From Dethiobacter alkaliphilus AHT 1 (GTDB lineage Bacteria > Bacillota > Dethiobacteria > Dethiobacterales > Dethiobacteraceae): a DNA stretch of 64,000 nt. Both the position numbers and the translations under genes were made by a program. Position 1 is the first letter of the stretch. The number at the start of each line of letters is the position of its first letter. The notes beneath the pieces were generated by a model, which saw nothing but the letters and a program-made list of their open reading frames with translations, was not told the origin of the DNA and made no database searches. The stretch spans positions 124,001 through 188,000 of the forward strand of contig NZ_ACJM01000002.1 in NCBI RefSeq assembly GCF_000174415.1, written 5' to 3'. This document shows, in pieces, positions 7,223 to 12,741 of the stretch.

Positions 7223-9571
7223 TTAGAGGACTGTAATGTTGGAAAAGTAAAAGATTATAAGGAAAAACAATACTAGCATTATTGCCATCAGCAGTGAATC
7301 AAAATTAAGGTTTTTAATGTTCCAGTCAGATGGCTTGCCTCTCAGTTTATCCCAAAAACTGCGGGAGCGTTGACCGGATTTTTCATACATATCGTCCAGA
7401 GAGTCATCAAATTGTGCGGTTTTTTGGGCCATTTTCTTGGCATACTTTCCGGATTTTTCATAAGCATCATTTAAGGAAGAGTCAAACCGCTTAGTTCCCT
7501 CCGCCATGCGCCGGGCATAACTGCCGGATTTTTCATAGGCATCATTCAGCGAGGTGTCGAACTTTTCAGTACCCTCTGCCATGCGCCGCGCCAGGCTGCC
7601 CGTTTTTTCATAGGCGTCATTAATTGATGAGTCAAATCTTTCAGTTCCCTCTGCCACACGCCGGGCAAAAGTCCCTGATTTTTCGTAGGCATCATTGATG
7701 GACTCATCAAACATGTTTACGTAGGTACACATTTTATTAGACACAGCTCCTGTTTGCAGATACACCTTATTAATGGCTGCATCAAACTTTGTGCCGAAAT
7801 TACAGCAAGTATGCACGATGAAATGATATGCTGGGCGGTAAAAGGCAAACTCCACGCTGAGCCAATGAGGCGCTCTCCACTCCATCAGGCGGAAGCGGTT
7901 TAAGACATAGAATAAAAGGACAGCTAAAACAACCACGATTACCATCTCGCGGATATCCGGCCAAATCCAGACACTGAGATTTTCCAGGTACGCTACTTTA
8001 TAAGGGTCATAGGTGAAGCCGGCCATAGCGGGGATGACCATCCGATTCAGCAGGAAATGGGGAAACAGGCCGATTGCAATGATTATCGCGCCAAAGGTAC
8101 CCAGAACCGCATATACGGGCCAAGTGAAGTTATAACTCTTCTTATCGTATTTCTCCGGGACATCACCGAGAAAAAGGCCCCTAAACAGTTTGGCAAAATA
8201 GCAGAGAGTCATGGCACTGGTAACCACAAATATCTTTTCTGCAACATGCAGCGGAACGGATCCGTGCAGGTTGGCGGCATCAACAATGGCATGATGAAGA
8301 ATGGTTTTACTGCCATAGCCATTAAACCCGGGGATTCCACCAATCCCGGCATAACCTATCAAAAAGGTAACAGCGATAAAAGGCACTTTTTTGGCCATGC
8401 CTCTAACCTGGGTTATGTCCAGGTTATGGGTAATCATATAAATTGAGCCCACCATCATAAAAAGCCCTGCTTTAAAGAAGGCGTGATTAATGATGTGATA
8501 CAAGGCCCCGGCAAAGCCCATGGGACCGGCAAAGCCCAGATACGCGGCCGTGCCGACTCCCAGAAGAATATAGCCCATTTGCGATACTGAACTGTAAGCG
8601 AGAATTTTTTTGGCACCGGTGGAAAGCAGGGCCATAAAAGCACCCAAAAACATGGTGATGATACCCATCCAGATGATGGCGTATCCGAAATTAACTGATA
8701 CTATGGACGGCACGGCCACCTCGCTGAATTCTGACGGAGTAAAAATCATGCCTACCACGCGGAAAATACCGTACGCACCAGCTTTAATCATCAGGCCGGA
8801 AAGCAATGCGCTGGCCGGAGCCGGGGCCACCGGATGCGCTTTGGGCAACCAGATATGCAGAGGTACCATTCCTGCCTTAATACCGAAGCCAACCAGAAAC
8901 AGTGTAACCACTGTGTATGGATTAATGGCACTTGCTGCAATCTGCTCATACAGGGGTATAATTTCCATGGTTCCCACATTGAAGTAAAGCAGAAAAATGG
9001 CCATTAGCAGGCACAAGCCTCCGAAAACACCCAGGTACAACGTAACCGCACCGCCTGCCATGGCATCCGGAGTTTCCTCGTGAATCACCAAAACATAAGA
9101 TGAGAAGGTCATTAACTCAAAGAATAAGAATAAACTGAACAGATCCCCTACCAACACCACGCCCAGACAGTGACCCAGAGTGGAGAGCAAAAAAACATAA
9201 TACCTGTTTTTTGCCCGCCCGTGTTCCATATAGGCAATGGAATAAAGGGTTGCCAGAAACCAGATGCATGACATTAAAGCCGCGAAGACAAAACCAAAAA
9301 AGTCCACACGAAAATGAATGCTAACCTGGAGAAATTTCGCAAACTCATATTGCAGCACTGCCTGCTGTACCAAAGGATACATGGAGAATACGATACCAAA
9401 AGTAATAAGTGCGGTAATAACAGCACAGATATCCCGGAGTTTTTCCGAAAATCTTCCGGCAAAAAAAACCAGCAGGGATCCTGCTAAAGGAACCGCCACT
9501 GCAAATACGGGTAAAAGCGAGGTAATAACTTCAGTTGTAGCCTGAATTTCCTGTGCAGCTGTAAAGCTCAT
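7223..9571 (-). CDS. Orphan NuoL/MrpD-like proton-translocating membrane subunit with repeat extension
   Basis: 782 residues. The first 560 form an antiporter-like subunit of the complex I/Mrp/hydrogenase-4 superfamily. Key residues are visible: FFELMTFSSY (channel glutamate), GIKAGMVPLHIWLPKAHP (lysine and histidine of the half-channel) and LYHIINHAFFKAGLF. After the last conserved helix there is an amphipathic region (residues 596-745) of six 25-residue repeats, then a final membrane helix. In NuoL a long lateral helix followed by one anchoring helix sits at the same place, so the repeats may be an enlarged lateral helix; that is inference. No other complex I, Mrp, hydrogenase or DabA gene is adjacent, so its partner is unknown. 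Start ATG with GGGAGG upstream. Confidence 0.85.
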   Translation of the reverse strand: MSFTAAQEIQATTEVITSLLPVFAVAVPLAGSLLVFFAGRFSEKLRDICAVITALITFGIVFSMYPLVQQAVLQYEFAKFLQVSIHFRVDFFGFVFAALMSCIWFLATLYSIAYMEHGRAKNRYYVFLLSTLGHCLGVVLVGDLFSLFLFFELMTFSSYVLVIHEETPDAMAGGAVTLYLGVFGGLCLLMAIFLLYFNVGTMEIIPLYEQIAASAINPYTVVTLFLVGFGIKAGMVPLHIWLPKAHPVAPAPASALLSGLMIKAGAYGIFRVVGMIFTPSEFSEVAVPSIVSVNFGYAIIWMGIITMFLGAFMALLSTGAKKILAYSSVSQMGYILLGVGTAAYLGFAGPMGFAGALYHIINHAFFKAGLFMMVGSIYMITHNLDITQVRGMAKKVPFIAVTFLIGYAGIGGIPGFNGYGSKTILHHAIVDAANLHGSVPLHVAEKIFVVTSAMTLCYFAKLFRGLFLGDVPEKYDKKSYNFTWPVYAVLGTFGAIIIAIGLFPHFLLNRMVIPAMAGFTYDPYKVAYLENLSVWIWPDIREMVIVVVLAVLLFYVLNRFRLMEWRAPHWLSVEFAFYRPAYHFIVHTCCNFGTKFDAAINKVYLQTGAVSNKMCTYVNMFDESINDAYEKSGTFARRVAEGTERFDSSINDAYEKTGSLARRMAEGTEKFDTSLNDAYEKSGSYARRMAEGTKRFDSSLNDAYEKSGKYAKKMAQKTAQFDDSLDDMYEKSGQRSRSFWDKLRGKPSDWNIKNLNFDSLLMAIMLVLFFLIIFYFSNITVL
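7337..7786 (-). repeat. Six tandem 75-base units coding 25-residue repeats
   Basis: Each unit codes a version of FDxSxNDAYEKSGxxARRMA plus EGTE(K/R). The first and last units are degenerate and the four central ones are close copies. In helical geometry 25 residues make about 7 turns, so one face is kept from unit to unit. Confidence 0.9.
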
Positions 9572-9700: not shown

Positions 9701-9995
9701 CGAATATAACTATATGCTATGAAACTTCTCGATTACATCTTTTTTCCTTATAATTAATGATTCCTATTCTTCAAAATAATAAAGTATTCCTGCCAGGCAA
9801 ACGAAAAATTTCACAAAAAATGCAATAACATATACCTTACCTTATTTTTATCACTTTAGACTTGAAACGTAAAGACTATTTTTTTCTTACGTAAAAATAG
9901 TTCTCACCTCTGAGCCATAATTGAGCCTAATGTTATATCTCGACAATTTCATCATAGAATTAAATATAAATGTCATATAACAGGGAGTGTTTGAT
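9700..9995. other. AT-rich promoter region between divergent genes
   Basis: About 300 bases that should hold the promoters of the NuoL-like gene and the ParM-like gene. It is strongly AT-rich (for example 9810-9900). No single −35/−10 pair stood out clearly, and no coding region is supported. Confidence 0.35.
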
Positions 9996-10937
9996 ATGAA
10001 GGAGTCTGTCGTTGGCATCGACTTAGGCTTTGGCTGGACTAAGGCCGGCCATAACGGCCAGTTCTTTCGTTGCCCGTCTGTTGTGGGCGAGGCTGTTAAT
10101 CTATTTGAATCACCTACCGGCATCGAAAATAATATTCAGTTATGGTATAACGATCAACATTACTTTGTTGGGGAGCTGGCAATTCGGCAAGCGACAATTA
10201 AATACTTTAGCATGGCGGCAAATAAGGCACGCAGCGACATTTCTGCAATATTAGCTGCCACTGCCTTGGCAGCCTTAAAACCTGGCCGGGTCAATATTGT
10301 AACCGGATTACCTGTAGATTTTTACTTTCAGTATAAAGACGATTTGGATAATCAACTGCAGCACCTGCCTAACCGGGTGCGGATTCAAATGGACAATAAA
10401 ACATACAACTGTGCTCTGGAAGTTCAACAGACAAAAATCGTACCGCAGCCCTTAGGAAGCGCCATGTCGCTTATTCTGGACTCACGTGGAAATACAATTG
10501 ATCATCGGTTAGCGTCCAAAAACATTTTAGTAGTAGATGTTGGCTTCCATACTCTGGACATTTTAGCCCTCTCAGCGCTGGAAATTATCCGACCCTTTTC
10601 ATTTACACGTCCTCTGGGAATGGCCGTAGCTTATAAAGGAATCAGTCAGGACTTGGGTGGCCTTCCTCTGTATGACGTAGATCGGTTATTTATAAAGAAC
10701 CAATTGCAAAACCACACCGCTGCGTTTCAATCTTTGGCCAGGCAGATCACAGAAGAAATAGCCGGCTTAAATCAAAAGTTTGATCATTACCTGATAACCG
10801 GCGGAGGTGGAGCACAACTGTATAACTGGCTACTTCCCGGATTCGAAAGAATATTGGTCCCCGATGCTCAACAAGCCAATGTGGTTGGCTATCAAAAACT
10901 GGGAGCCAAAACCTGGAGTAAAAGAAACATATCTTAA
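9996..10937 (+). CDS. ParM/StbA-like actin-family ATPase
   Basis: 313 residues from the ATG at 9996 (GGGAG 8 bases upstream). It has the actin/Hsp70 ATPase layout: phosphate-1 motif VGIDLGFGWTKAG at the start, phosphate-2 ILVVDVGFHTLDIL near residue 180, and the adenosine motif YLITGGGGAQL near residue 260. In ParM-type proteins filament growth separates plasmids or moves other cargo. Here there is no centromere-binding partner gene and no plasmid context, so this is an orphan chromosomal copy that could belong to an integrated plasmid remnant or to a cytoskeletal system. A strong terminator follows. Confidence 0.82.
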   Translation: MKESVVGIDLGFGWTKAGHNGQFFRCPSVVGEAVNLFESPTGIENNIQLWYNDQHYFVGELAIRQATIKYFSMAANKARSDISAILAATALAALKPGRVNIVTGLPVDFYFQYKDDLDNQLQHLPNRVRIQMDNKTYNCALEVQQTKIVPQPLGSAMSLILDSRGNTIDHRLASKNILVVDVGFHTLDILALSALEIIRPFSFTRPLGMAVAYKGISQDLGGLPLYDVDRLFIKNQLQNHTAAFQSLARQITEEIAGLNQKFDHYLITGGGGAQLYNWLLPGFERILVPDAQQANVVGYQKLGAKTWSKRNIS

Positions 10938-11001: not shown

Positions 11002-12108
11002 TTAGTATTTTCTCAGTTCATCCAGGATTTCTTCAGAAGGGTTATTGGGGATGGAGGCGATTTCTTTACCCTGGTACTCAAAGACAACTTTATCATCATT
11101 GGTAATTTCACCAACAACAGTGGCTTTGGCGTTTTGAGAACGGATAGCCTCTAAGACTTCATCTACATCCTCCGGGTTAACCTGGAACTGCATCCGGGCC
11201 TGTGTTTCGCAGATTAGAATTTCCTCAGGCGTAATATCCTTATCTCTTACCGGAACGTTGGTTAAGTCCACCTTGGCTCCAAAGCCGCCATAACGGGCTG
11301 ATTCGCATACTGCTGCTCCAATACCGGCGGCTCCTAAATCGGAGCAGGCATTAATTTTACCTGTCTTAAACGCAGCGATGCTGGCATCCATGGTCACTCT
11401 TTCTTCTTCAAAAAGCGCTATAGCCGGACGCATCTCCGAAACCAATCCGGCTCTGTACAGAGTGTCGTTTCCGTCGGTACCTGTTTCGCCCACTACGATA
11501 ATCTTGTTCCCGGCAATCTTGGCAGGTTTGGTGAGAGGCTTGTCCGTTACCAGCTTACCCACCACAGCGACTACACAAGCAGGCACTATGTCGCTAAAGG
11601 AAGTGGAGAAACCTCCTCCCGCAACAAATACATCCATAGTATTACACATATCCCTGATCCCTTTTAACATTATGTTTAAGCGATCCTGACTGGTCATAGT
11701 TTCGCAATTACCGCAGGTACATTCACCTTTAAAACCGCAGGGACCAACCAAAACTTCTTGTTCAAGAGGGCGGGTGCCGATAAAATCCAGGGCAAAAAGT
11801 GGTCTGCCGCCCATAGCTACCACATCCCTCATTGCACCGCCGGCTCCTGTGGCTGCAGCATCATAAGGCCTTGGCACACAGGGAGAGTTATGGCTCTCCA
11901 TTTTTCCTACTACCAGGGTGCCTTCCCCGGGAATTTCAACTACCGCAGCATCGTCGTTGGCGTCCGGGCCAACCAAAAGAGCTCCCGGCCAGGTTTTGTC
12001 TACCTTTTCATTGAGCTTTTTAAAGGCACCAAAATCAATGGCTTTGTCAATGTTGTGATGCAAATGGACAAAAAGTCCATGCATTAACGCTTTTTCCACT
12101 TTGTTCAT
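11002..12108 (-). CDS. AIR-synthase-related, PurL-like half-length protein
   Basis: 368 residues from the ATG at 12108 (GGGAGGAAA upstream). It matches one half of the PurM/PurL superfamily: GPDANDDAAVVEIP, KMESHNSPC (compare PurL ETHNHPS), YDAAATGAGGAMRDVVAMGG, and the C-terminal EILICETQARM that resembles the PurL SESQERM segment. True PurL is about twice as long with two such halves. A cysteine cluster absent from ordinary PurL is inserted near residue 135 (CGFKGECTCGNCE) and may bind metal. Members of this superfamily (PurL, PurM, SelD, HypE, ThiL) use ATP to activate a substrate; which one applies here is unknown. No purine genes are adjacent. Confidence 0.7.
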   Translation of the reverse strand: MNKVEKALMHGLFVHLHHNIDKAIDFGAFKKLNEKVDKTWPGALLVGPDANDDAAVVEIPGEGTLVVGKMESHNSPCVPRPYDAAATGAGGAMRDVVAMGGRPLFALDFIGTRPLEQEVLVGPCGFKGECTCGNCETMTSQDRLNIMLKGIRDMCNTMDVFVAGGGFSTSFSDIVPACVVAVVGKLVTDKPLTKPAKIAGNKIIVVGETGTDGNDTLYRAGLVSEMRPAIALFEEERVTMDASIAAFKTGKINACSDLGAAGIGAAVCESARYGGFGAKVDLTNVPVRDKDITPEEILICETQARMQFQVNPEDVDEVLEAIRSQNAKATVVGEITNDDKVVFEYQGKEIASIPNNPSEEILDELRKY

Positions 12109-12259
12109 TGATGTTTCCTCCCTCTTAGATAACACTTGCTTTACCAAATGTTTCATAAATATTTTATCTATAATTCGTCAAGAAGTGATTTTTTTCCTCC
12201 CACTATTTTTTTATTATGGTCAATAAGGAATTTTATTATGATTAACTATGGAACGCAAC

Positions 12260-12288
12260 TTGACTAATATACCATATAGGGGTATGCT
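12260..12288 (+). promoter_or_regulatory. Sigma-A type promoter
   Basis: TTGACT (12260-12265), a 17-base spacer and TATGCT (12283-12288) form a near-consensus promoter, 34 bases before the ATG at 12322. It should drive the UGA-containing gene. Confidence 0.7.
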
Positions 12289-12321
12289 AAAGGATATCAT
12301 GCCTGAAAGAGAGGTGCGAAA

Positions 12322-12741
12322 ATGACAAAAGATATTTTGACCGATGAAGAATGGGAAGATGCGGAAAATCTTACTGTACGGCAAAAAAAGCACCCGCAAC
12401 CGGCTAATGGCGGCGGTGCCAAACAATATATTCCTCTTTTCCTAATCGCTATTGTGGCCATAGTGTTAATTAACAGATTTATGATAACCCGCTCTATGCC
12501 AAATTTTGCCCGCTTTAGCCGGTGAGGTGCCGGCACTGCAGTCGGTGCGGCTGCTACCTGTTTTGAAGAGTTGGAACAAATGGGTCTGGAGTTTTACCAG
12601 GCCAAAACCAATGATGAAGACATTGATGGTTTAAGCATCCAGATTCAGGACTTCGGTTATCACCAGGAAATATATATCTTTAAAAACGAAGACTTGGTCA
12701 TGAAACTTGAACATGCCGATGGCCAGATAGATAGAATGTAG
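12322..12741 (+). CDS. Small membrane protein with in-frame UGA at codon 68: selenoprotein candidate or nonsense-interrupted gene
   Basis: ATG at 12322 with GAGAGGTG upstream. The first 67 codons give an acidic N-terminus, one membrane helix (about residues 36-52) and a basic end, then TGA at 12523-12525. The same frame stays open for 71 more codons to TAG at 12741. That tail is plausible protein: a Gly/Ala-rich stretch GAGTAVGAAATCFEELEQMG, then an acidic beta-like domain. Just after the TGA the mRNA can fold as GGU-GCC-GCAC-UG, loop CAGU, CG-GUGC-GGC-ACC, loosely like a bacterial SECIS but with the loop only about 13 bases from the UGA, slightly closer than usual. Alternatives are a nonsense mutation, or a stop with a separate downstream gene from the ATG near 12580. 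The stop lies one base from the convergent gene. Confidence 0.5.

Follow-up and report, generated by a model that had tools for sequence, protein, structure and literature searches.

A gene in the 64,000-nt stretch of DNA from the anaerobe Dethiobacter alkaliphilus analysed here (the window) raises the question of whether an in-frame UGA ends a short membrane peptide or is read as selenocysteine (Sec). Selenoprotein genes are widely misannotated because the UGA is taken as a stop. The gene very probably encodes a membrane protein with a single TM helix, whose codon 68, a UGA, specifies Sec. This reading had been proposed in a first-pass annotation of the sequence and is supported by the Sec machinery of the genome, by homologues with cysteine in the corresponding region and by a bSECIS-like hairpin resembling that of the genome's own fdhA; the tests that were run did not refute it. 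Machinery, homology, Cys context, SECIS architecture and lack of decay were computed directly, and from these we infer that Sec is inserted in the protein. A UGA cluster that consists of one sequence ranks as a 'candidate' under a published rule (PMC1088965), and the window gene holds that rank since the UGA is known in one sequence only. The gene is a candidate for a new selenoprotein family that would be decoded by the ordinary bacterial machinery.

The reading frame on both sides of the UGA

The frame opens with an ATG at 12322 on the forward strand and runs for 67 codons to the UGA at 12523-12525, after which 71 open codons follow in the same frame up to a TAG at 12739-12741; the first-pass annotation had described this arrangement, and the same coordinates were recovered here. 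Read through the UGA, the coding sequence (12322-12741) specifies a protein of 139 amino acids with a predicted Sec68. Open length alone is unremarkable, as the window holds five single-TGA read-through frames with at least 60 codons on each side. What lifts the case above chance is that homology flanks the UGA on both sides and that a hairpin lies downstream.

In an AlphaFold2 model of the protein, residues 33-58 (12418-12495) form a predicted transmembrane helix and residues 81-138 (12562-12735) form a C-terminal alpha-beta4 domain with pLDDT above 90, which is the conserved part of the alignment after the UGA. Residues 56-75, Sec68 among them, are disordered in the model. The protein has no match in Pfam or NCBIfam, and neither a sequence search nor a fold search of the PDB gave anything usable (best E 0.18 for the fold search). 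A search of the literature on selenoproteins of this organism found nothing on the gene.

Homologues with cysteine at the UGA position

Cys-containing homologues were found in 13 of 60 sampled relatives and subsequently in 18 of 98 genomes of the class. A scan of GTDB contigs with the window protein as the single query found no relative, and the same scan with the alignment as query found 18 Cys homologues. The homologues start with a hydrophilic stretch, followed by a single TM helix and a linker that is rich in Gly and contains CC or CxxC; their C-terminal domain bears the signature DFGCHQEI.IYKDG. With few exceptions the complete homologues are one uninterrupted chain, and their sequences continue past the UGA position with Cys-containing sense codons and no stop there, as the first-pass annotation had proposed to check. 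A few short copies (e.g. L011 and L049) are without the Cys linker. A seeming TGA in one homologue (L041) proved to be located upstream of the start codon.

The UGA lies in the Gly-rich linker and falls within the CC/CxxC motif of the homologues. In a 21-row alignment U68 stands on the second Cys of CC, and an ungapped count from the Arg that follows the TM helix likewise leads to the second Cys in members with CGGC. The pairing of U68 with an exact Cys column is uncertain by about one residue because the linker is Gly-rich and has indels.

The same genome carries a paralogue (C4:165568-166011) that is approximately 40-46% identical to the read-through protein and has an intact CC. Identity to this paralogue is 50% over residues 82-139 and 33% over residues 34-66, which precede the UGA. 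Across the 58 codons compared after the UGA, the differences at codon positions 1, 2 and 3 number 22, 13 and 34. As judged from these substitutions, the comparison shows long coding constraint on the domain encoded after the UGA, with which a very recent stop would still be compatible.

A bSECIS-like hairpin downstream of the UGA

A hairpin at 12538-12554 on the forward strand, GCAGUC[GGUGC]GGCUGC, has a 6-bp stem and presents a GGU apical loop 18 nt past the UGA. This 5-nt-loop form has an energy of -7.4 kcal/mol; an alternative form of the same hairpin has 7 bp and a GUG loop 19 nt from the UGA, with an energy of -8.6 kcal/mol. The published bSECIS model calls for a loop of 3-9 nt with a G in the first two loop positions, located 16-37 nt from the UGA on a stem of 4-16 bp, and an energy of -7.5 kcal/mol or lower (PMC13188914 Fig. 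2). The hairpin agrees with all four of the published criteria, for energy by way of its 3-nt-loop form. The fdhA gene of the same genome has GTGGCC[GGTCT]GGCCAC at 18 nt after its UGA, likewise with a 6-bp stem, so that the layout is the same and the bSECIS check proposed earlier gave a match to the genome's own fdhA SECIS at the canonical distance. This layout, with UGA, 18 nt, a GGU loop and a 6-bp stem, also corresponds to the arrangement in E. coli fdhF.

The exact layout (UGA, 18 nt, 5-nt GGU loop and 6-bp stem) occurs at 22 of 26 FDH Sec sites from the class, two of the 28 sites picked (L121 and L125) having been left out as mispicks by sequence. Among 11,577 TGA triplets otherwise tested it occurs once, at the window UGA itself, and it is found at none of the 32 Cys codons of 16 Cys homologues. 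The 18-nt GGU layout is also absent from selD and from the NF041239 gene of the same genome. The first-pass annotation had warned that GC-rich codons yield hairpins by chance, and the codons of the linker are GC-rich: under the strictest null, synonymous resampling of the same Gly/Ala-rich peptide, the exact layout appears in 2.5% of sequences. A looser bSECIS model is matched by 2% of all TGAs, by 7% when these are GC-matched and by 16% upon synonymous resampling.

The hairpin right after the UGA that the first-pass annotation had singled out, which belongs to the minimum-energy fold, is not the relevant one. As a SECIS it is not significant (z -0.9), and its loop, CAGU, is wrongly spaced at 13 nt. 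The earlier doubt that the spacing was a little short arose because this hairpin had been picked; the 18 nt of the 12538-12554 loop lie within the published range. The unconstrained minimum-energy fold (-14.0 kcal/mol) pairs the bases of the 12538-12554 hairpin otherwise, and a ribosome positioned at the UGA would be expected to melt the first part of this competing fold and so free the hairpin. An Rfam search gave no real match.

Selenocysteine machinery and other Sec genes of the genome

The genome possesses selA (C1:107068, 586 bits), an adjoining selB (C1:108438, 389 bits), selD (C1:110375), which adjoins selB and carries its own in-frame TGA, and a tRNA-Sec with a UCA anticodon (C1:86930), which answers the question of sel genes that had been attached to the original proposal. 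Besides the window gene, three selenoprotein genes are recognisable: fdhA, which has a TGA and matches Fdh-alpha with 900.8 bits, selD, and a member of the CC/Se motif family NF041239. The latter gene (C2:113151-113420) has an in-frame TGA in the context KKG-U-CHSG and is located approximately 10.6 kb before the window start. NF041239 members with one TGA are common across the class, as is TGA-containing fdhA.

A second tRNA-Sec-like gene (C3:124334-124423; 1501-1594 in the extracted locus L018) scores above the tRNA-Sec cut-off and has a GCA (Cys) anticodon. It is a selC*-type tRNA-Cys, a class already known (PMC7609411).

Based on these elements, UGA codon 68 would be decoded as Sec by the genome's SelA/SelB/SelD/tRNA-Sec system, with the stem-loop at 12538-12554 directing SelB. 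The Sec residue would then replace one Cys of the homologues' CC/CxxC pair, in the flexible Gly/Ala segment that joins the TM helix to the small alpha-beta4 domain.

Transcription signals and genomic setting

The promoter and ribosome binding site noted in the first-pass annotation were both found again. A sigma-70-like promoter, TTGACT-17 nt-TATGCT (12260-12288, forward strand), matches at 9 of 12 positions, a degree of match that chance is also expected to give, and a ribosome binding site, AAAGAGAGGTG (12306-12316), has AGAGGTG as its Shine-Dalgarno sequence. Overlapping the promoter is a CsoR-like operator palindrome, ATACCATATAGGGGTAT (12269-12285). The pattern ATACC-N7-GGTAT has 7 genomic sites, compared with 2 for a reversed control pattern. 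Two CsoR-family genes are present in the genome, both with Cys-His-Cys ligands, and one of them lies approximately 1.4 kb from another ATACC-N7-GGTAT site. The palindrome may be a putative operator through which a CsoR-family protein controls the window gene.

Further copies of the palindrome precede a HesB-like gene, a CcdA-TlpA pair, a ferredoxin gene and a NapH-like gene (L101, L102, L103 and L105, near 1501-1517), these names having been assigned by eye from translations. It is possible that the redox-gene promoters bearing the palindrome form a copper or persulfide regulon.

The operon of the Cys homologues encodes a BlaI-like repressor, an M56 peptidase, an FtrD-like (DUF2318) protein, the homologue, a MacB/FtsX permease, an ABC ATPase and a second FtsX permease. 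Both in this genome and in relatives the homologue gene sits between the FtrD-like (DUF2318) gene and the MacB/FtsX ABC transporter genes. The window copy stands alone, outside such an operon, and would be a solitary, diverged duplicate of the operon-encoded thiol protein. Its divergent neighbour in the window (11002-12156, reverse strand) encodes a protein of the AIR-synthase/SelD superfamily with a Cys-rich insert (GPCGFKGECTCGNC), which as a SelD fails the curated cut-off. Farther off are a ParM/actin-like ATPase gene with an ALP_N domain in a chromosomal setting (9987-10937, forward strand) and a gene for a membrane antiporter/NuoL-like subunit (7223-9571, reverse strand), the C-terminal tail of which consists of near-identical repeats (DAYEKSG..ARRMAEGTE.FD).

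Alternative explanations for the UGA

The main rival to the selenoprotein reading is that the duplicate is dispensable and diverging and has recently picked up a nonsense mutation (or that a base is in error), in which case only a 67-aa TM peptide would be made and the downstream frame would be a leftover. The first-pass annotation had named a nonsense mutation as an alternative. A single UGA-bearing sequence is known. A single change turns the Cys codon TGT or TGC into TGA, and the intact CC paralogue is present in the same genome. The window copy has also lost conserved residues: the near-invariant Cys113 is gone (GCHQE to GYHQE), Arg67 stands in place of the first cysteine of CC, and the KDG motif is KNE, changes that may reflect relaxed constraint. 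No second homologue bearing a UGA was found in 98 genomes of the class or 398 of the phylum, nor among GTDB loci picked out by a pattern that required Cys; this pattern demanded GCHQE and was therefore blind to orthologues of the GYHQE type. Against this explanation, the hairpin shares its layout with the fdhA of the genome, and this layout is missing from the other TGAs and the Cys homologues tested, the stop coincides with the location of the family cysteines, and the promoter and ribosome binding site are retained. Moreover, the region after the UGA has neither a frameshift nor an extra stop, and it keeps its third-position excess and its 50% identity to the paralogue. We consider a nonsense mutation or base error unlikely.

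Alternatively, the UGA could be a programmed end of a short TM peptide, with the C-terminal domain made by re-initiation at an in-frame ATG (12580) and a role as RNA element or weak terminator for the 12538-12554 hairpin. An SD-like GAAGAG (12565-12570) does lie 9 nt upstream of that ATG, and a terminator scan flags the hairpin too, but its tail (TACCTGTTTT) does not qualify as a U tract, and chance alone would give 0.9 such sites. Since the complete homologues are, with few exceptions, fused in a single chain, and since a programmed split leaves the SECIS-type loop and spacing unexplained, this arrangement is very improbable. The chance that the UGA is read as Cys rather than Sec is smaller still and close to negligible: the selC*-type tRNA-Cys that might suggest such recoding reads UGC and UGU because its anticodon is GCA and not UCA, and a true tRNA-Sec(UCA) is present in the genome.

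Possible function and significance

The selenoprotein reading, if correct, would extend the list of roughly 119 selenoprotein families and subfamilies of prokaryotes (PMC13188914) by one that is anchored in the membrane. It would also connect selenium with a transport system that is a relative of Fet/P19-type iron uptake, and provide a case of a Cys-to-Sec switch following gene duplication, with the Cys paralogue retained in the same genome. The gene was caught from raw sequence, and its protein belongs to a family that lacks database matches. The protein may have a role in thiol/selenol redox chemistry or in the handling of metals (Fe/Cu) at the outer face of the cytoplasmic membrane. In its fullest form the proposal is tentative, and we would give it somewhat less than an even chance: a selenoprotein family with an undescribed domain, comprising a TM anchor and Sec on a Gly-rich arm, that was duplicated from a DUF2318/MacB-type operon and came under CsoR-family (copper or sulfur) control, where selenium would bind metal as a ligand or act as a redox relay on the cell surface.

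Comparison with known systems

The Sec-containing formate dehydrogenases (fdhA/fdhF) resemble the window gene in having a UGA alongside SelA/SelB/SelD/tRNA-Sec and in the layout of their bSECIS, with its GGU loop at 18 nt and 6-bp stem. They are different proteins, however, and the stem sequences are unrelated; the loop is GGUGC in the window and GGUCU in fdhA. Proteins of the NF041239 family are likewise small and have CC or Cys/Sec near a Gly-rich motif, but they look soluble and HesB-like, and their SECIS differs (loop CGUG, 23 nt). The window protein does not match this family, and its paralogue scores 12.9 bits against a curated cut-off of 40. Many CC/Se-motif TGA genes of the class (L074-L098) share a distinct SECIS-like hairpin, CCUGC[CGUGNNN]GCAGG, the loop of which follows the UGA at 23 nt.

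In the Fet/P19 iron-uptake cluster, FetA is a DUF2318 protein, FetBCD form an ABC transporter and FetEF are thioredoxins, and a relay of reducing power has been proposed for its CXXC proteins (PMC10783030). The Cys-homologue operon resembles FetA-FetBCD; it differs in that FetM, FetP and thioredoxin genes are absent from the stretches read and in that the small CC protein is no thioredoxin. Finally, the HesB-like selenoproteins, the mercuric transport protein and further predicted selenoproteins with a link to metals (PMC13188914 Table 1), which share no sequence family with the window protein, are likewise small predicted Sec proteins, and their roles are probably those of redox proteins or metal ligands.
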